Source: Gemmatimonadota bacterium
GTDB taxonomy: Bacteria; Gemmatimonadota; Gemmatimonadetes; Gemmatimonadales; Gemmatimonadaceae
NCBI GenBank assembly: GCA_027307165.1
Contig: DAHUXM010000027.1
Coordinates: 124,001 to 188,000 of the forward strand
Length of the DNA: 64,000 nt
Direction of reading: 5' to 3'
The notes beneath the pieces were generated by a model. It did not search any database. It had not been told where the DNA came from and saw nothing but the letters and a program-made list of their open reading frames with translations. Every line of letters begins with the position of its first letter. The first letter of the stretch is position 1. Positions 1,604 to 58,923 of the stretch are shown in pieces. Both the position numbers and the translations under genes were made by a program.

Positions 1604-1622
1604 CGCTGACTACCCGGAGCAG

Positions 1623-1690
1623 CTGACAGAACCGCCGCTCGCGCTGTTACTGGCATCGGAAGCCAGCGCTGCGAGCGGCGGTTCTGTCAG
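1623..1690. terminator. Perfect 20-bp stem-loop between convergent genes
   Basis: Arms 1623-1642 and 1671-1690 are exact inverted complements of 20 bp with a 28-base loop that itself can form a CTGGC/GCCAG hairpin. It lies between the DUF59 stop (1603) and the DUF3565 stop (1687-1689), which it slightly overlaps. There is no T-tract, so it may be a bidirectional factor-dependent terminator or mRNA 3'-end stabiliser. Confidence 0.6.
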
Positions 1691-1923
1691 GTGATTCCAG
1701 CTTCGCGCGGGTCGCAGCACTTGACGCATTCGAGCGTCTTGCCCAGGAAAGTCGCGCGGCCCGATTCAGTCGTGACCCAGGTTCTGACTTGCCACGGTGG
1801 GTCGTGCCGCACGTGTTGTGTGTGCCCGCACTCGAGATCGGCGACCCAGTGGTTCTCTTCATCCTGATGGAATCCGATTATCCGTCTTGGAATCGCCGAC
1901 CCCGCGCATGCATCCCGCTGCAT
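1687..1923 (-). CDS. DUF3565 small protein
   Basis: A 78-residue protein of the DUF3565 family, recognised from RRIIGFHQDEENHWVADLEC followed by GHTQHVRHDPPWQ and a C-terminal LECVKCCDP. Conserved His and Cys residues suggest metal binding, but no function is established for this family. The ATG at 1923 follows ACGGAG at proper spacing; a longer frame to 1992 would overlap the nirK-like gene and lacks a ribosome-binding site. It starts 31 bp after the nirK-like stop on the same strand, so the two probably share a transcript, which hints at a role linked to copper or nitrogen-oxide metabolism. Confidence 0.75.
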   Translation of the reverse strand: MQRDACAGSAIPRRIIGFHQDEENHWVADLECGHTQHVRHDPPWQVRTWVTTESGRATFLGKTLECVKCCDPREAGIT

Positions 1924-13783: not shown

Positions 13784-14350
13784 ATGGTACGTGGGACCAG
13801 AAGCAGCGCATTTGTGGTCGCGCTCTGCGCGGTGACATTGCTCGGCGCATGCAAGAAGGGGAATGAGGCGGCCGATACGACCACGGCCGGTGCCGCCGAC
13901 ACGTCGATGGCCGCCGGCGCGGGATCGAGCACCTCGATGAAGACGCCCGCAGCGACCATGACGGACGCGCAGATTTTTGCGATGCTGGCGGCAGCCAACC
14001 GCGGCGAGATCGACGCGGGCAAGATGGCATCGACCAAGGCGACGAGTGCATCGGTCAGGTCGTTCGCGCGCGATATGGTGACCGCGCATACCAAGATGCT
14101 GAACGATGGCAACGCACTGGCAAAGAAACTCAGCATCACGCCTGACACGACAGCGGCCGATTCCATCAATGGAATGAATCAGTCGACCGCGGCGACGCTG
14201 ACGGCAGCGGCGAAGGGTGCGGCGTTCGATTCGGCGTACGTCAATGCGCAGGTAGCGGGACACGAGTACGTGCTCGACATGATCAAGCGCGCGGAAGGGC
14301 AGGCGCAGAACCCGGAGCTCAAGTCAGCTCTGACATCGGCGGAGCCCTAG
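13784..14350 (+). CDS. DUF4142 lipoprotein, ended early by an in-frame TAG
   Basis: About 188 residues: lipobox LLGAC, a Thr/Ala-rich linker, then a ferritin-like DUF4142 four-helix domain (AQIFAMLAAANRGEIDAGKM, VRSFARDMVTAHTKM, VAGHEYVLDMI). GAGAGG precedes the ATG at 13784. The frame stops at TAG (14348-14350) immediately after LKSALTSAEP, but continues in the same frame to 14401 with VQQHLDRIKDIQSKMK and a second TAG. Those 16 residues look like the usual end of helix 4 in DUF4142 proteins. So the gene seems to be truncated by a single nonsense codon, or read through, or carries a sequencing error. The loss is small and the product may still fold. Confidence 0.85.
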   Translation: MVRGTRSSAFVVALCAVTLLGACKKGNEAADTTTAGAADTSMAAGAGSSTSMKTPAATMTDAQIFAMLAAANRGEIDAGKMASTKATSASVRSFARDMVTAHTKMLNDGNALAKKLSITPDTTAADSINGMNQSTAATLTAAAKGAAFDSAYVNAQVAGHEYVLDMIKRAEGQAQNPELKSALTSAEP

Positions 14351-14401: not shown

Positions 14402-14708
14402 CACCTCGCGGGCGCGACATCGATCGCGTATTTCTGGACGGAGTGGAGCGTCGCTCTCGAGCGACGCTCCACTATCTGGTCGCCGCGATGCGGGCGACGC
14501 AGACGACGGAGCTGCAGTATCTGATTCAGAGAACTGCGCCGGTATTTCTGAACGACATGGACCGCGCACACACGCTCAGAGGAAGATTCTGAGCAGTGGA
14601 GTGCGCGGTTTTCTGTGCGGTGAGAGTGCCCCGTCGTTGTGGCAACGTTGCGCTGCTTCTGTTCGGTCAGTGGTCTGCCACGGCACTGAATGGATTCCAT
14701 AGCGTTCA
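14402..14708. other. Intergenic region with a strong hairpin; no gene supported
   Basis: About 300 bases between the DUF4142 gene and the convergent gamma-glutamyltransferase fusion. It holds one perfect stem-loop (listed separately). A plus-strand frame without stops runs to 14592 but has no early start codon and crosses the stem-loop, so I do not call it. The rest shows nothing that I recognise. Confidence 0.5.
14442..14473 (+). terminator. Stem-loop terminator after the DUF4142 gene
   Basis: AGTGGAGCGTCGCT (14442-14455), loop CTCG, then its exact complement (14460-14473): a perfect 14-bp stem with a tetraloop, 41 bp past the second in-frame stop. No T-tract follows. The shape fits a transcription terminator for the DUF4142 transcript. 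Confidence 0.6.
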
Positions 14709-33149: not shown

Positions 33150-33737
33150 ATGACAATGTTCAGGATCATGAAATTCCCGGCAATTGCGATGTTGATGGCA
33201 GCCCCATTCTGTTTGCAGGCCCAGGGATCGATGGGTGGAATGGCGATGCCTACGGCGCAGGCTTCATCTGCACCGGAAGTGGGCACGATGGCGCCTGATT
33301 TCACGGCGCAGGGCGCGAACCAGTCCGGTACGCATGCTGTATCACTCAGTTCCCTGCGCGGGCACGTTGTCGTGCTGGCGTTCTATCCGGCGGATCGGTC
33401 GAGCGGATGCACTCACGAGCTCAACAAGTTCCGCGATGAGTACTCCAAGATCTTCGGATCCGATGTAACGGTGCTTCCCATCTCGCTCGACAGCCTCGAA
33501 TCACACGTGAGTTGGGCGCACGACTCGAAATTCCCATTCACTCTCGTCGCCGACAACGGCGGAAAGATCGCGAGCACCTACGGGTCGTTGATGACGGGGC
33601 GTCCGTACGCCAGCCGGACCGTATTCGTGATCGGCAAGGATGGCAAGATCGTGAGCCGCAACCTGAAGTTCGGTGCGCTGGATCAGCACGCCTACGACGA
33701 TCTTACCGCTGCGATCGCGAAGGCGAAGACCGAGTAG
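33150..33737 (+). CDS. Exported 1-Cys peroxiredoxin (AhpC/TSA, BCP-like)
   Basis: A 195-residue peroxiredoxin with an N-terminal signal peptide and a Met-rich segment after it (GSMGGMAMP). The active-site loop reads FYPADRSSGCTHELNKFRDE, with the peroxidatic Cys87 where BCP-type enzymes have PGCT. No other cysteine occurs in the mature protein, so it is a 1-Cys enzyme and needs an outside thiol for regeneration. The flanking TlpA-like and CcdA/DsbD-like genes would provide that. It would remove hydrogen peroxide or organic peroxides in the periplasm. Confidence 0.88.
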   Translation: MTMFRIMKFPAIAMLMAAPFCLQAQGSMGGMAMPTAQASSAPEVGTMAPDFTAQGANQSGTHAVSLSSLRGHVVVLAFYPADRSSGCTHELNKFRDEYSKIFGSDVTVLPISLDSLESHVSWAHDSKFPFTLVADNGGKIASTYGSLMTGRPYASRTVFVIGKDGKIVSRNLKFGALDQHAYDDLTAAIAKAKTE

Positions 33738-33768
33738 CACGACAGTCGGGAAACTGTAGCTCGAAATA

Positions 33769-34470
33769 GTGGATCTCTCCCAGATCGGAATGCGGCTGTC
33801 GCAGAGTCCTGCGACAGCCATTCCGATCCTGTTCTTCACCGGCGTCCTCACCAGCCTGACGCCGTGCATCTATCCAATGATTCCGATCACCGCGGCAATA
33901 GTCGGTGGTCAATCGGTCGGCCGCAGCACACGTCGCGGTGTCGCGTTGACCCTGATGTACGTCTTCGGGCTCTCGCTGGTTTACGCGCTGCTCGGGTTGC
34001 TCGCCGGTCTCACGCAAACACTGTTCGGCACTGTGAGTGCGAGTCCGTGGGCAGCACTCGTCACCGGCAATCTGCTGCTTCTATTCGGTCTCTGGATGCT
34101 CGACGCTATTCCAATCCGAATCCCCTCCGCGCTACTCGGCGGCGGACGCACCGAATCGGTCAGCTCACTCGGCGGCGCATTCATAATGGGATGCGCATCG
34201 GGACTCGTCGCGGCACCGTGTTCCGCGCCAGTGCTCGCTGCGGTCCTCACATGGGTCGCAGTAACCAAGAGCGCGGTACTCGGCTTCATCTACCTGTTCG
34301 TCTTCTCCATCGGTATGTGCGCGTTGCTGGTGGTAGTCGGAATATTCGGCGCAACATTCGCGCGATTGCCGAAGTCAGGGATGTGGATGGTGTGGGTCAA
34401 GCGCGTGCTGGCGCTCGTGATGCTCGGCGCCGCGGAGTACTACTTCGTCCACGCCGGGCTGACGATGTAG
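33769..34470 (+). CDS. CcdA/DsbD-like transmembrane electron carrier
   Basis: A 233-residue membrane protein of the DsbD/CcdA family with six predicted helices. The two redox cysteines are in the family motifs TPCIYPM (Cys33) and AAPCSAP (Cys151). It moves reducing equivalents from cytoplasmic thioredoxin to periplasmic thiol proteins. It lacks DsbD's outer alpha and gamma domains, which the separate TlpA-like protein could replace. A GTG start 31 bp after the peroxiredoxin stop supports an operon. Confidence 0.88.
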   Translation: MDLSQIGMRLSQSPATAIPILFFTGVLTSLTPCIYPMIPITAAIVGGQSVGRSTRRGVALTLMYVFGLSLVYALLGLLAGLTQTLFGTVSASPWAALVTGNLLLLFGLWMLDAIPIRIPSALLGGGRTESVSSLGGAFIMGCASGLVAAPCSAPVLAAVLTWVAVTKSAVLGFIYLFVFSIGMCALLVVVGIFGATFARLPKSGMWMVWVKRVLALVMLGAAEYYFVHAGLTM

Positions 34471-34565
34471 GCGTGTTCTGCGCGCCCCCTGGATCTTGCG
34501 TGTAGAGCGCCGGACGGGTGCGCTGCAGGAGTCAACCGATTCCATCGAGCCGCAACGCAACGCCT

Positions 34566-35474
34566 TTAGAATGCAGCCGGCAACAGACGTCGCGGTGGGT
34601 TGAACGCCTTGTGTCCGCGCGTGTCATAGGGAACATCCCGCGGCGCACCTCCATTCGGCCAGTCCAGCTCCTTCCCGCGCGAATCGCGTCGCGGATGAGA
34701 CACGACAAACGCCGCGACGTCGTATGCTTGCTGATCGCTCAATATGCCAGCCGAATCGAACGGCATGTTGCGTCTGATGAACGACGCAGCGCGCTCGATA
34801 CGCGCCAGCGACGCCCCTATCGAATAGGAGCGGGGCCCCCAGAGCGGGGTTGCAGGTGGTATCCCCTGTCCATCGACACCGTGGCAACGCGCGCACCGCG
34901 CGGTAAATATCGCTGCGCCACGTGACGTATCGCCGCTCATCTCCGGCATCTTCGGCAACCCTTCGCCGCTTACGTGACTCCCCACCGCCACGCCGCGCGA
35001 CACGACCGCGAGATACGTGACCATGTCGTTCATCTCCCTGCTGTCTGACGGGATGTTTCGTCCCGCCATGCTGCGCCGCATGCAGTTGTTGACACGATCC
35101 TGGATCGTGATCACGCGGCCGTCGCGCGTCGTATAGTTGGGATAGCGTGCGTACGTGCCCGTCAGCGGAATTCCGTTCGGGCGTCGGCCGCTGTCGATGT
35201 GGCAACTGAAGCAGCGGAGTGAATTGCCGACGTAGCCGGGCAGGCTGTCGCGCGTCGCCGCAAGAATCGCGAAGCCGCGCCGCGCCGACGCTCCTTCCGG
35301 GCCGGATGGATACGTCGCGGAATCGTAAAGCGTCGCGATTGTAGCTGTGCTGCTCGTGCGAAGACTGTCGCGCGCGTTTGCAGCATCATTCGCACGAGTG
35401 CCACACGCGAGCGACGCAAGCGCAACTACGCTGGCCGTAATGCGAAGCATGAATTCCCGTCCAACTCCTGACAT
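34566..35474 (-). CDS. Dihaem c-type cytochrome, TsdA-like
   Basis: About 302 residues; lipoprotein-type leader (LASLAC, Cys24), then two haem domains with CFSCH (88-92) and CARCH (194-198). The first domain carries YARYPNYTTRDGRVITIQDR followed by NNCMRRSM and DSREMNDMVTYL, which resemble thiosulfate dehydrogenase TsdA. It could oxidise thiosulfate to tetrathionate or simply pass electrons on from the PQQ dehydrogenase gene located just upstream on the same strand. GGAGG lies 4 bp before the ATG at 35474 but is buried in a 16-bp stem (see 35476-35536). ATG 35450 is the alternative start. Confidence 0.85.
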   Translation of the reverse strand: MSGVGREFMLRITASVVALASLACGTRANDAANARDSLRTSSTATIATLYDSATYPSGPEGASARRGFAILAATRDSLPGYVGNSLRCFSCHIDSGRRPNGIPLTGTYARYPNYTTRDGRVITIQDRVNNCMRRSMAGRNIPSDSREMNDMVTYLAVVSRGVAVGSHVSGEGLPKMPEMSGDTSRGAAIFTARCARCHGVDGQGIPPATPLWGPRSYSIGASLARIERAASFIRRNMPFDSAGILSDQQAYDVAAFVVSHPRRDSRGKELDWPNGGAPRDVPYDTRGHKAFNPPRRLLPAAF

Positions 35475-35475
35475 C

Positions 35476-35536
35476 GGTCCTCCGTGGAGCGCTGCAACGT
35501 CCCAGGCAATGGGAAGGTAACGCTCCACGGAGGACC
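35476..35536 (-). promoter_or_regulatory. 16-bp RNA stem that would hide the cytochrome ribosome-binding site
   Basis: Arms 35476-35491 and 35521-35536 are perfect inverted complements of 16 bp with a 29-base loop (which can itself form TCCCA/TGGGA). In the minus-strand mRNA the downstream arm is CGCTCCACGGAGGACC, directly before GATG, so the Shine-Dalgarno GGAGG is fully paired. It sits in the 113-bp gap between the PQQ dehydrogenase stop and the cytochrome start. It may be a translational switch, an attenuator or a terminator. Confidence 0.6.
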
Positions 35537-35587
35537 TGCGCGACCGCTGGCCGAGACCGCCAGCCGCGGCCGCCAGCTACGCGGGGA

Positions 35588-37621
35588 TCAATGTTGCGCC
35601 GGCAACGCGAACGCCATCACGTAGTCGCCAACGCCGAATTCCTTGCCCCCGCCGGCCGTTATCACCATGTACTGCTTTCCATCCCGTCCGCTCACGTAGG
35701 TCATGGGCGTCATGCGAGCGCCTGCCGGAAGTGGAGCGCTCCAGAGCTCGTTTCCGTTCGCCGCATCGTAAGCGCGCACCATGCGGTCCAGTGTGCCGGC
35801 CTGGAATATGACTCCGCCCGCGGTCACGATGGGACCACCGAGCGACAGGCCACCCCATTTCTCGCGGCCCGGGCCGCCCGTGGGCCAGCCGCCGAGCGGC
35901 ACTTCCCAGCGGCGCGCACCGGTCGACATGTCGATTGCAATCAGCGTTCCGAACGGGGGCTTGACGCATGGCACGGTGTCCGGGCCAACGAGCAGTCTGC
36001 GTCGCATGACGTACGGCGTTCCCTGCATGCGAGAGTATTCGTAGCCAAGCCGCGAGTCGGAGCTGCTGATTCCATCGCGCGTGTAGTTTGCCGAATCGAT
36101 GAGCTGCACCATCGAAGGAACGCGGTTCTCCGGCACGATGATCGTGTTGGTGCGAGCGTCGAACGCCACTCCGCCCCATGCCGCGCCGCCAACGTTGGAT
36201 GGACGTTGAATCGTGCCGCGCAGGCTTGGCGGCGTGTACATCCCATCGCTGCGAAGGGACCGCGTCATGGCACGACAGGCGGCAAGCGTCGCCGGCGTGT
36301 CACCCCAGATTTCCGTCGAGTCGATTCCCTGAGGCGTGAGCGGTGCGATGACAGTGTTGAAAGGCTGCGTTGGCCAGCTCTGCTCGCCAGGAACGTCGCT
36401 GCGCGGCACCGCGCGCTCCTCGACCGGGAAAACTGGTTTTCCAGTAGCTCGATCGAGTACGAACAACTGACCCGTCTTGGTTGCTTCTACCACGACATCC
36501 TGCTTCCGCCCATCCTTCGTGATCGTGATGAGCGCAGGCGGTGATGCATTGTCGTAATCCCACAGATCGTGATGCACCGTCTGAAATTGCCATACCACCT
36601 TTCCCGTGGATCCACGCAGCGCGACCAGCGAGTTTCCGTAGCGGTTGTCGCCCAGACGCTCGCCACCGTAGTAGTCGGGACTCGGACTGGTTGTCGGAAG
36701 AATGACGAGATCGCGCGCCGAATCCACGCCGATCACCGACCACACGTTTGCGGCGCCGGTGTTGTGTCCATTAGGCCCGCCCCAACTACTGTAATACGGA
36801 TCGGATGGATCCTGCGGAACCGGATCGAATGCCCACCGGCTGGCGCCCGTACGCGCGTCGAACGCGCGTATCTCGCCACTCGGCTTGTTGACACGTCCGT
36901 TGTCGCCGATGCTCGATCCGATTACAACGAGGCCATCGATGATGACAGGTGGCGACGTCTCTACATATTCTCCCCATTCGGTGAGCGGTGGATTGCGGAG
37001 ACCCGTCTTGAGCTCGATCGTGCCGTGATCGCCGAAATCATCGCACACCTTTCCCGTATGGCCATCGATCGCGATCAGACGTGCATCGACCGTCGCCAGG
37101 AAGATGCGCATCGCGCACGGAGCATCATGGTTGGCTGCCGCGTCGGTCCATGCCGTCACGCCTCGGCTTGCGAAGTCACCGGGATCGACCGCACGATCGA
37201 CATGCGCGTCGAATACCCACAACTCCGAGCCGCTCGTAGGATCGAGCGCGATCACCCTGCCGAGCGGAGTATTCAGATACATGACTCCGTCGATCACGAT
37301 CGGAGTCGTCTCGAACTCAGCGCGATTCTTCGCCGCGAGCTCAGGGCGTGTTTCGCCCGTGCGGTAGGTCCACGCAAGCGTGAGTGAATACGCGTTCGCA
37401 GGAGTGATCTGCGACGCTGGCGAAAATCGTGTACCGGCAGGATCGTAGCCATAGGATGGCCAGTCGATGGATCGGGATGCCGTACCGCGGTCGGTAGCGA
37501 GCTCTGCGGTTGTATGCGGTGTCGTCACGCACGCAGAGAGAGCGAGTGCGCCGCCAAATGTCGCCGGTCGTATCAAGCGACCTAGCACGCGCGTTCCGAG
37601 GCGAGATGCAGACTGCGTCAT
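35588..37621 (-). CDS. PQQ-dependent dehydrogenase (glucose dehydrogenase-like quinoprotein)
   Basis: About 677 residues: a leader ending in a lipobox (ALSAC), then an eight-bladed quinoprotein propeller with repeated W-motifs (LAWTYRTGET, SELWVFDAHVD, GKVVWQFQTVHHDLWDYDNA, GNELWSAPLPAG). WQFQTVHHDLWDYD and WGGPNGHNTGAANVW are typical of soluble-domain parts of membrane glucose/quinate dehydrogenases, whose N-terminal membrane helices are replaced here by a lipid anchor. It would oxidise a sugar or alcohol in the periplasm and hand electrons to a cytochrome, presumably the dihaem protein downstream. No pqq synthesis genes are in the window. The start could also be GTG 37651. Confidence 0.85.
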   Translation of the reverse strand: MTQSASRLGTRVLGRLIRPATFGGALALSACVTTPHTTAELATDRGTASRSIDWPSYGYDPAGTRFSPASQITPANAYSLTLAWTYRTGETRPELAAKNRAEFETTPIVIDGVMYLNTPLGRVIALDPTSGSELWVFDAHVDRAVDPGDFASRGVTAWTDAAANHDAPCAMRIFLATVDARLIAIDGHTGKVCDDFGDHGTIELKTGLRNPPLTEWGEYVETSPPVIIDGLVVIGSSIGDNGRVNKPSGEIRAFDARTGASRWAFDPVPQDPSDPYYSSWGGPNGHNTGAANVWSVIGVDSARDLVILPTTSPSPDYYGGERLGDNRYGNSLVALRGSTGKVVWQFQTVHHDLWDYDNASPPALITITKDGRKQDVVVEATKTGQLFVLDRATGKPVFPVEERAVPRSDVPGEQSWPTQPFNTVIAPLTPQGIDSTEIWGDTPATLAACRAMTRSLRSDGMYTPPSLRGTIQRPSNVGGAAWGGVAFDARTNTIIVPENRVPSMVQLIDSANYTRDGISSSDSRLGYEYSRMQGTPYVMRRRLLVGPDTVPCVKPPFGTLIAIDMSTGARRWEVPLGGWPTGGPGREKWGGLSLGGPIVTAGGVIFQAGTLDRMVRAYDAANGNELWSAPLPAGARMTPMTYVSGRDGKQYMVITAGGGKEFGVGDYVMAFALPAQH

Positions 37622-37777
37622 GGGTCGTGTCTGGTTGGAGTGATTCGGCACTCATCGAGCGCCCGTTGCGGGGAAGCTCGTTGGGGGTGCGATCCGGCGG
37701 CAACAGAAGTGGGACAGACGGGATCGGGCTGGGAGGATGCGGACTCAGGCAGCACCGGCTGTGGATCCCGCCGGCTC

Positions 37778-37824
37778 TTGACGACACTTAACCGTGGGTA
37801 TAGACTAGAATTAACCAAGGTTAA
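37778..37824 (+). promoter_or_regulatory. mntR promoter with DtxR/MntR-type operator
   Basis: TTGACG (37778-37783), 17 bp, TAGACT (37801-37806) form a sigma-70-like promoter; the dyad TTAACC-AA-GGTTAA (37811-37824) covers the expected start of transcription. A further TTAACC half-site lies at 37788-37793. The size and AT/GG-CC pattern are those of DtxR/MntR sites, so autoregulation by the gene 30 bp downstream is likely. Confidence 0.6.
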
Positions 37825-37854
37825 AAAGGCCCCGTTGGGTCAATACGCACAAAA

Positions 37855-38529
37855 ATGCTCTCCCCGTCCGTCGAAGACTACATAAAGGCTATCTACAAGG
37901 CCCGCAGCGATAAAGGCACCATCACAACGCAGGACCTGGCCGACCGGCTCGGCGTAAGTGCGCCCGCGGTCAGCAAGATGATGCGGCGCCTGACGGAGCT
38001 CCGGCTCATCTCGCACGCCCCGTATCAGGCAGTCGAGCTGACTGAAGCCGGTGAGAAGATGGCCCTCGAGATCATCCGGCATCACAGGCTGCTGGAACTG
38101 TATCTCGTACGGGCAATGGGCTTCACATGGGACAACGTGCACGAGGAAGCCGAACGGCTCGAACACCACATCAGCGAGGAGTTCGAGGACCGGATCGACA
38201 AGCTGCTGGGTCATCCGACGGCCTGTCCTCATGGTGATCCGATTCCGACGCGCGCCGGTGCCATCGCGCGCAGCTCCAATCGCTCGCTCGCGGTGCAGCG
38301 TGAGCCCGAGCGTCTCATGGTCCAGCGCGTAAGCGACGAGGACGCAGCCCTGTTGCGTCACTTCAAGTCACTCGGCGTCATTCCCGGCACGGCGGTCGAG
38401 TTCGTTCGCCAGGAGCCATTCGAGGGGCCGCTCGTGCTGCGGATCGGCGGCAGGCTCGTGCGCATCACGCCGCAGGCGGCGCGCGAGGTATTCGTCGATC
38501 CCGTGTCGAGAGAGGATTCACGCTCGTGA
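37855..38529 (+). CDS. mntR: DtxR/MntR-family metal-dependent repressor with FeoA-like domain
   Basis: A 224-residue three-domain regulator: winged helix (SVEDYIKAIYKARSDKGTIT, TQDLADRLGVSAPAVSKMMR), metal-binding/dimerisation domain (HHRLLELYLVRAMGFTWDNV, HEEAERLEHHISEEFEDRID) and a C-terminal FeoA/SH3-like domain (about 150-218, GVIPGTAVEFVRQEPFEGPL). Metal-ligand positions (Glu, His, Cys/Met region HPTACPHGDPIP) are present. The next gene, overlapping by GTGA, is an NRAMP manganese transporter, which supports an MntR/SirR-like manganese or iron repressor. A dyad in its promoter suggests autoregulation. Confidence 0.9.
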   Translation: MLSPSVEDYIKAIYKARSDKGTITTQDLADRLGVSAPAVSKMMRRLTELRLISHAPYQAVELTEAGEKMALEIIRHHRLLELYLVRAMGFTWDNVHEEAERLEHHISEEFEDRIDKLLGHPTACPHGDPIPTRAGAIARSSNRSLAVQREPERLMVQRVSDEDAALLRHFKSLGVIPGTAVEFVRQEPFEGPLVLRIGGRLVRITPQAAREVFVDPVSREDSRS

Positions 38530-39893
38530 CTCTCACCTCGACGGAGCCCGAGCTCGATCCCGAAGACACGGGCGTAAGAAAGCACGGATGGAAGCGGCTC
38601 AGCATCATACCAAGCCTGCCCGAAGTCAACCGCTCGATCCATGTACCGGACAGGCGGTACATCTGGCGGCGTGCACTCGCATTTGCGGGTCCCGGCTACC
38701 TCATTGCCGTGGGCTACATGGATCCCGGCAACTGGGCCACCGACATCGCGGCGGGAAGTCTATACAACTACTCGCTGCTTTCGGTGGTCCTCATCGCGAA
38801 CTTCATCGCGATCTTTCTGCAGGCGCTCTCCGCCAAGCTCGGCATCGTATCGGAGCGCGATCTGGCGCAGGCGTGCCGCGACGCATATCCACGTCCCGTA
38901 TCGATCGGCTTGTGGCTGTCCGCCGAGATCGGGATCATAGCATGCGACATCGCCGAAGTGCTCGGGGCCGCGATCGCGCTGAACCTGTTGTTTCATCTGC
39001 CGCTCGTGTGGGGAGTGGCGTTGACCGCGCTCGACGTTCTGATAGTCCTCGCGCTGCAGAACAAGGGGTTCAGGCTCATCGAAGCCTTCGTCGTGACGCT
39101 GATCATAACGATGATGGTGATATTCGGATTCGAGATCGCGTACTCGAAACCAGACTGGGCTGCGACCATGCGCGGGTTCATACCTACGTCGCAGATCGTG
39201 ACCGATCCAAAGATGCTGTACATCGCGCTCGGCATACTCGGCGCGACGGTCATGCCGCACAATCTGTATCTGCACTCGTCGATCGTGCAGACGCGCCGGC
39301 ATGGACGGAGCGTCTCCGATCTGCGCGACGCGCTCAAGTATTCGTACACCGATTCCACGGTCGCGCTGATGCTCGCGCTCTTTGTGAATGCGGCGATCCT
39401 CGTCGTATCCGCGGCGACGTTCTACAGAACCGGTCACCACGAGGTCGGCGAGATCCAGGACGCGTACAAGCTGTTGTCGCCACTGCTCGGCGTTGCGGTC
39501 GCCACGCCGTTGTTCGCAGTTGCTCTGCTCGCATCCGGACAGAATTCCACACTGACCGGAACGCTCGCGGGACAGATCGTGCTCGAAGGCTTCACCGAGT
39601 TTCGAATTCCGGCGTGGCTGCGCCGGATGATCTCACGAATGCTCGCGATCGTGCCGTCGATCTTCGTTGTCGCGTGGTATGGCGACCGTGGGATGGGGGC
39701 GCTGCTTCTGTTCAGCCAGGTGATACTCTCGGCGCAGCTCTCCTTTGCGGTGATTCCACTGGTCCAGTTCACGAGCGACCGTACGAAGATGGGCGAATTC
39801 GTGAACGGGACGGTGACCAGATGGATTGGCTGGGGACTCTCGGCGCTGATCGCGGGACTCAACGCGTATCTGATCGTCACGGCGCTCAGATGA
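38526..39893 (+). CDS. mntH: NRAMP-family Mn2+/Fe2+ transporter
   Basis: A 455-residue transporter with eleven or so membrane helices. The metal-binding motifs are intact: DPGN in YMDPGNWATDIAAG of helix 1 and MPHN in GATVMPHNLYLHSS of helix 6. Residues 1-45 form a charged cytoplasmic N-terminus, longer than in E. coli MntH. It imports divalent manganese (or iron) with protons. The GTG start overlaps the mntR stop (GTGA), so repressor and transporter are made together under the same operator. A longer overlapping reading frame in another phase is a shadow. Confidence 0.93.
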   Translation: MTLTSTEPELDPEDTGVRKHGWKRLSIIPSLPEVNRSIHVPDRRYIWRRALAFAGPGYLIAVGYMDPGNWATDIAAGSLYNYSLLSVVLIANFIAIFLQALSAKLGIVSERDLAQACRDAYPRPVSIGLWLSAEIGIIACDIAEVLGAAIALNLLFHLPLVWGVALTALDVLIVLALQNKGFRLIEAFVVTLIITMMVIFGFEIAYSKPDWAATMRGFIPTSQIVTDPKMLYIALGILGATVMPHNLYLHSSIVQTRRHGRSVSDLRDALKYSYTDSTVALMLALFVNAAILVVSAATFYRTGHHEVGEIQDAYKLLSPLLGVAVATPLFAVALLASGQNSTLTGTLAGQIVLEGFTEFRIPAWLRRMISRMLAIVPSIFVVAWYGDRGMGALLLFSQVILSAQLSFAVIPLVQFTSDRTKMGEFVNGTVTRWIGWGLSALIAGLNAYLIVTALR

Positions 39894-58820: not shown

Positions 58821-58923
58821 CGTCATTCCCGCGAAAGCGGGAATCCATCTGTTGCCGACCCATTCCAGCCATCGTCACGCTCGAAGATCGATAACATGGA
58901 TTCCCGCTTTCGCGGGAATGACG
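58821..58923. repeat. Inverted pair of REP-like elements
   Basis: Two 28-bp elements, 58821-58848 and 58896-58923, are exact inverted complements separated by 47 bp. Each holds the inner palindrome ATTCCCGC-GAAA-GCGGGAAT. Such TCATTCCCGCGAAAGCGGGA-type elements occur between genes in many bacteria. The pair lies between the DGPF gene and the sigma factor gene, filling most of their 180-bp gap, and would make a very stable hairpin in the transcript. Confidence 0.85.

Follow-up and report, generated by a model that had tools for sequence, protein, structure and literature searches.

The locus examined here raises the question of what a long perfect stem does when it stands between a PQQ-dependent dehydrogenase gene and a dihaem cytochrome gene and encloses the Shine-Dalgarno-like site of the second: whether it is a switch governing the cytochrome, a terminator of the dehydrogenase transcript or a static hairpin that sets the two genes apart. 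Positions are those of the window (the whole stretch analysed, 64,000 nucleotides), and the features are collected in Table 1. The genome is referred to as G000 and was compared with three others of the genus: the sister species G002, and G001 and G003.

The intercistronic stem and its folding

The dehydrogenase coordinates are those of the longest GTG frame (start codon putative), and the closest NCBIfam model, TIGR03074, scored below cut-off (623 against 832.65 bits). The cytochrome combines SoxA/TsdA-like and cytochrome c domains, and its two CXXCH motifs read CFSCH and CARCH in translation. Its N-terminal cysteine, which we take to be that of a lipobox, is common to its relatives.

Table 1. 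Features of the dehydrogenase-cytochrome region, in order along the minus strand (window positions)
Feature	Coordinates	Strand	Remarks
PQQ-dependent dehydrogenase, glucose/quinate/shikimate-like beta-propeller (upstream gene)	35588..37651	-	PF01011, E 8e-217
GC-rich 51-nt spacer, stop to stem	35537..35587	-	G002 (sister species) has a repeat-like insertion of 13 nt here
Block identical in both species: stem-loop, leader, first codons	35350..35550	-	201 nt, G000 vs G002 alignment
5' arm of perfect stem	35521..35536	-	GGTCCTCCGTGGAGCG in minus-strand reading; holds CCTCC, complement of GGAGG
29-nt loop	35492..35520	-	inner 5-bp helix (TCCCA/TGGGA)
3' arm of stem	35476..35491	-	CGCTCCACGGAGGACC in minus-strand reading; sequence reading
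GGAGG, Shine-Dalgarno-like	35479..35483	-	within 3' arm; 4 nt ahead of ATG 35474
First in-frame ATG	35472..35474	-	4 nt past GGAGG; opening cost 31.2 kcal/mol
AGGAG outside stem	35465..35469	-	14 nt ahead of second ATG, unusually far
Second in-frame ATG	35448..35450	-	opening cost 7.3 kcal/mol; 15 residues ahead of lipobox-like Cys, close to G001
Dihaem c-type cytochrome, lipoprotein-like N-terminus	34566..35474	-	PF21342, PF00034/PF13442; two CXXCH

The initial annotation had described a perfect 16-bp stem with GGAGG in its 3' arm, the 5' arm following the dehydrogenase stop, and both statements hold: on the minus strand the stop codon (35590-35588) is followed by 51 nt, the 5' arm, 29 nt, the 3' arm, one G and ATG 35474, and the arms are 100% complementary. 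The predicted fold of the 61-nt hairpin, an 18-bp outer helix plus inner pairs, has an energy of -43.1 kcal/mol, and the 151-nt context of the hairpin gave a folding z of -4.1 (0 of 200 shuffles were equally stable). The opposite strand also folds well (z -5.4), as expected of a perfect inverted repeat, and, compared with its own reverse strand, the element gives a 76% match across 61 nt. The stem is more than chance, because 10 perfect stems of at least 14 bp (loop of up to 60 nt) were found in 392.7 kb of the genome, for which three dinucleotide shuffles gave 0, 1 and 0, these counts by size resting on arms longer than 12 bp. In the predicted ensemble every base of GGAGG is paired (unpaired probability about 0), and its pairing energy with an assumed anti-Shine-Dalgarno sequence is -9.5 kcal/mol.

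Other identities of the element were considered and rejected. The stem-loop is single copy, the locus itself being the sole match in G000 and in G002, which rejects a dispersed repeat (REP/MITE-like). For a known riboswitch or other Rfam RNA family, a covariance-model scan of 34400-37900 gave 0 matches up to E 1. A more extensive structured RNA continuing into the coding sequence was rejected on the 136 nt downstream of the stem, whose folding is no better than that of shuffles (z 0.76); a weak inverted pair lies there, at 35346-35405. Both inner arms together gave 0 matches in a scan of a genome-contig collection, and one stem arm alone was present in three viral contigs.

Distribution and conservation in the genus

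The stem was found in G000 and G002 alone among the four genomes. The cytochrome of G002 is 93-95% identical (95% in one comparison, 93% by tblastn), and G001 and G003 are 65-69% identical. Stem, loop and leader of G002 are letter-for-letter the same as in G000, and the spacer differs by three changes and a 13-nt insertion, so that the stem starts 64 nt past the dehydrogenase stop, against 51 nt in G000. G003 has a cytochrome start that overlaps the dehydrogenase stop (ATGA), and G001 a short gap with an open AGGGGGAG site ahead of the cytochrome. Since these two genomes are without the stem, it would hence have arisen in, or survived solely in, the G000/G002 lineage. Given the ATGA overlap of G003 and the short gap with an open site of G001, the stem-bearing lineage appears to have separated the two genes, which stand 113 nt apart here against close linkage in both relatives. 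The uncoupling of the cytochrome from the dehydrogenase that was initially proposed is therefore plausible, because GGAGG is paired and because this gap replaces the close linkage.

A dehydrogenase upstream of the cytochrome (within 1.5 or 3 kb) was detected in the genus alone among 43 loci examined (30 matches from a first homologue set and 13 from a second, with G001 and G003 in both). In G001 (L101, upstream of 3001), the dehydrogenase gene seems to have shrunk to about 39 C-terminal residues, all that was detected in the 3 kb upstream, and the cytochrome gene is kept.

The 201-nt identical block is tied fifth of all identical runs in the 216.7-kb alignment of G000 and G002, in which the two species differ at 6.2% of aligned columns and runs of at least 200 nt occur six times; sequence past about 37500, where the two are not alike, was left out. 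This identity suggests constraint, without separating the stem from coding effects. Covariation was not usable on the stem, because G002, the only other genome with it, is identical over it. Eight of the 14 long stems of C7 fall in the alignment; the seven others each carry at least one change, against none in the 61 positions of the intercistronic element. The stem at C7 73417-73460 shows a double change between the species that keeps pairing (T-A to C-G), which supports RNA pairing for the stem class, not for its intercistronic member.

A family-wide pattern, GTGGAGCG...CGCTCCAC, was rejected as the same element: 44 of 148 genomes match, mostly in unrelated sequences. Each strand of G019 holds 82 matches, G018 and G045 have a few, and the hairpin sites of these three genomes have arms of seven-base repeats (GTGGAGC, GTCGAGC).

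Candidate cytochrome starts and the class of long stems

The gene models behind the comparisons of this section (566 and 272 starts, stem-class counts, spacing) were made with a crude purpose-written caller that favours Shine-Dalgarno-like starts. For the cytochrome the caller picked GTG 35528, to which the frame extends back within the 5' arm and which has a weak Shine-Dalgarno site (-3.3).

The predicted opening cost of ATG 35474 is higher than those of all 566 predicted starts in the G000 and G002 stretches (median 10.2 kcal/mol, maximum 27.1) and ranks 1 of 272 under two further settings; that of ATG 35450 lies under the same median. The Shine-Dalgarno-like site of ATG 35474 is stronger and better spaced than that of ATG 35450: spacing at strong sites in these genomes is 4-11 nt in 38 of 40 (a count biased to the extent that the caller favours Shine-Dalgarno-like starts), a range outside which the AGGAG of 35450 falls. 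A start at 35450 gives a signal of about G001 length (MRRFAILALVLAASVGC against MLRITASVVALASLAC) and agrees with relatives, in which the lipoprotein signals are short. On these models we lean towards 35450 as the cytochrome start in practice, with 35474 largely shut. Translation from 35450 independent of GGAGG had been set against masking in the initial annotation; this start is indeed predicted to be open, but with its AGGAG 14 nt away.

Elsewhere in the window, the predicted start of a DUF4142 gene (13784-14350, plus strand) is among the most buried compared, within a long imperfect hairpin; its opening cost is 26.9 kcal/mol, and 27.1 in G002.

Long perfect stems in these genomes look like 3'-end hairpins. 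Perfect intergenic stems of at least 12 bp were surveyed in 402 intergenic gaps, with G000 and G002 pooled, so that orthologous stems are counted twice, and with the cytochrome start set by hand so that its stem counts as intergenic. Convergent gaps held such stems in 10 of 69 cases and tandem gaps in 13 of 246, whereas all 87 divergent gaps lacked them; shuffled sequences yielded about 0.1 or fewer in each class. Most begin no more than about 30 nt from a stop (at most 34 nt for 10 of the 13 tandem stems), and 10 of the 32 stem sides lying up to 40 nt from a stop have at least four T in the next eight bases, against a background of 6%. The dehydrogenase-cytochrome stem is atypical of its class: at 51 nt from the stop (64 nt in G002), it begins farther away than 10 of the 13 tandem stems, and, together with its G002 counterpart, it alone among the tandem stems has a 3' arm ending at most 15 nt from the next start (next closest, 17 nt).

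Other members of the class were seen past stop codons. Perfect inverted repeats with 28-29 bp arms (CGTCATTCCCGCGAAAGCGGGAATCCAT) lie at window 58821-58923 and at C7 209972-210077 of G000; G000 has at least two copies and G002 has one, and in the second copy the two genomes carry the inner loop in opposite orientations (by eye). A 20-23 bp stem with a 28-nt loop (window 1620-1693) and a 14-15 bp stem with a short loop (window 14442-14473) each follow a predicted stop, with small changes in G002.

Possible roles of the stem

The most likely explanation, at about an even chance in our view, is that the stem acts as a static 3'-end-type hairpin between the two cistrons, separating the cytochrome from the dehydrogenase and lowering cytochrome expression. 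The stem would be of the type placed after genes in the genus; it would bound or stabilise the dehydrogenase portion of the message and set the cytochrome apart. It would also shut the strong start at 35474, so that the open start at 35450 would supply a small amount of cytochrome, translated from transcripts that read through the stem or begin separately. The shared transcript of the two genes, the start used and the effect on expression are what we infer. This explanation is favoured by the 3'-end bias and T enrichment of the class, the contrast between a buried 35474 and an open 35450, the G001-like signal, the separation of the genes and the 201-nt identity. Counting against it are the distance of the stem from the stop, the 3' arm adjoining the next start, the presence of only two T in the next eight bases and the AGGAG spacing of 35450, beyond that of 38 of 40 strong sites; moreover, a strong GGAGG 4 nt ahead of an unused in-frame ATG would be a sizeable coincidence.

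Any role as a switch depends on how the stem could be opened. The initial annotation had suggested temperature among other means, and a thermometer was rejected, the hairpin being predicted to retain -29.8 kcal/mol at 60 °C. Opening by RNA cleavage of the RNase III type fared no better: searches gave 0 of 4 genus genomes with PF14622 and with PF00636, and 0 of 41 with TIGR02191 in a set made up of this genome and relatives, while 8 or 9 of 14 control genomes matched. Across the phylum, only 7 of 121 genomes had a detected RNase III. A query protein from another family of the phylum matched 0 of 31 genomes, in a run that had no control match and shows little alone. Because no RNase III was found in the genus or its relatives, classic cleavage freeing a masked site would be without its enzyme, and this route was rejected; the order as a whole may be without it. 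RNase E/G and Rho are encoded in 4 of 4 genus genomes, three of which also have RNase Y above its cut-off. The apparent absence of RNase III deserves a check, given that a review of mRNA decay calls the enzyme highly conserved across bacteria in the part of it consulted (PMC3071783), and it makes the long intergenic duplexes of these relatives interesting, as the enzyme that usually cuts them is seemingly missing.

Under regulated masking, translation would truly begin at 35474 and the stem would be a switch, which a protein, a helicase, a small RNA or cleavage opens on the transcript shared by the two genes, making the cytochrome conditional. This reading draws on the pairing energy and usual 4-nt spacing of a wholly buried GGAGG, on a burial that is the strongest among the starts compared and on the lack of change between G000 and G002 over the hairpin and its next 126 nt. 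A start at 35450 would bypass the stem, however, G001 and G003 do without it, its stability is too great for a thermometer, RNase III went undetected in the genus and the relatives searched, the Rfam scan gave no match, and no larger regulatory RNA is evident because the sequence downstream of the stem lacks excess folding. We consider regulated masking unlikely. The burial of GGAGG on which the initial proposal rested stood up, whereas a regulated switch is possible but is not the best-supported reading. A bolder version, in which the -43 kcal/mol stem, in cells without RNase III, locks the strong start until a helicase, an RNA-binding protein or a ribosome-dependent process opens it and thereby makes the dehydrogenase:cytochrome ratio conditional, is a long shot.

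That the dehydrogenase transcript simply ends at the stem, with a cytochrome promoter within or just past the stem region, is rather improbable. The 3'-end bias of the stem class, the presence of Rho and the persistence of the G001 cytochrome, with 39 dehydrogenase residues detected in the 3 kb upstream, would agree with a terminator, but the stem has no U-tract and a 29-nt loop, was not listed by a terminator scan and leaves almost no room before the gene, and 0 promoters were found on the minus strand of 33500-38800 in a scan that covered sigma-70-like promoters, not those of other sigma factors. Of the terminator first suggested, the resemblance to the long stems enriched at gene 3' ends is thus retained, set against the missing U-tract and the long loop. 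A neutral leftover, i.e. a lineage-specific inverted duplication without function, would suit an element present in two sister genomes of four, in an alignment where six runs reach 200 identical bases and identity is not unique; against this, all seven other aligned long stems have changed and this one has not, and long stems are far above shuffles. We consider a leftover very improbable. Most improbable of these readings is a DNA-level operator for a dimeric regulator: a dyad CTCC-NN-GGAG can be read directly in each arm, with centres 43 bp apart, and the element matches its own reverse strand, but near-copies of the arm (one mismatch) are about as many in the genome as those of a backwards control, and the element is single copy.

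If the stem sets the ratio of PQQ dehydrogenase to cytochrome, the locus would offer a simple case of a lineage separating linked respiratory genes without moving them. Like an intrinsic terminator, the stem is GC-rich, perfectly paired and placed past a stop codon, and stems of this kind mark 3' ends in the genome; the lack of a U-tract, the 29-nt loop, the 51 nt from the stop and the adjoining gene are unlike one. In E. coli adhE and phage lambda cIII, as the portion of PMC5371410 consulted describes them, structure masks the ribosome-binding site until RNase III cuts. The burial of such a site in a paired region is shared with this locus, which differs from those cases in a genus with no detected RNase III and in an alternative open start at the cytochrome; the conditional ratio outlined above would likewise take a different route from adhE or cIII. 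Local hairpins over the initiation site of hlgC and ompK36, said in an excerpt of PMC10434192 to sequester the Shine-Dalgarno sequence and lower translation, are alike in position over an initiation site; those hairpins are in 5' UTR or early-coding sequence and are altered by point mutations, unlike the long perfect intercistronic stem described here. In the Clostridium operons with intergenic stem-loops and selective RNA processing and stabilisation, going by the section of PMC8219983 that treats them, a stable stem-loop likewise stands between two genes, past the first; the present stem, in a likely operon and known from sequence, adds a 3' arm that also covers a Shine-Dalgarno-like site.
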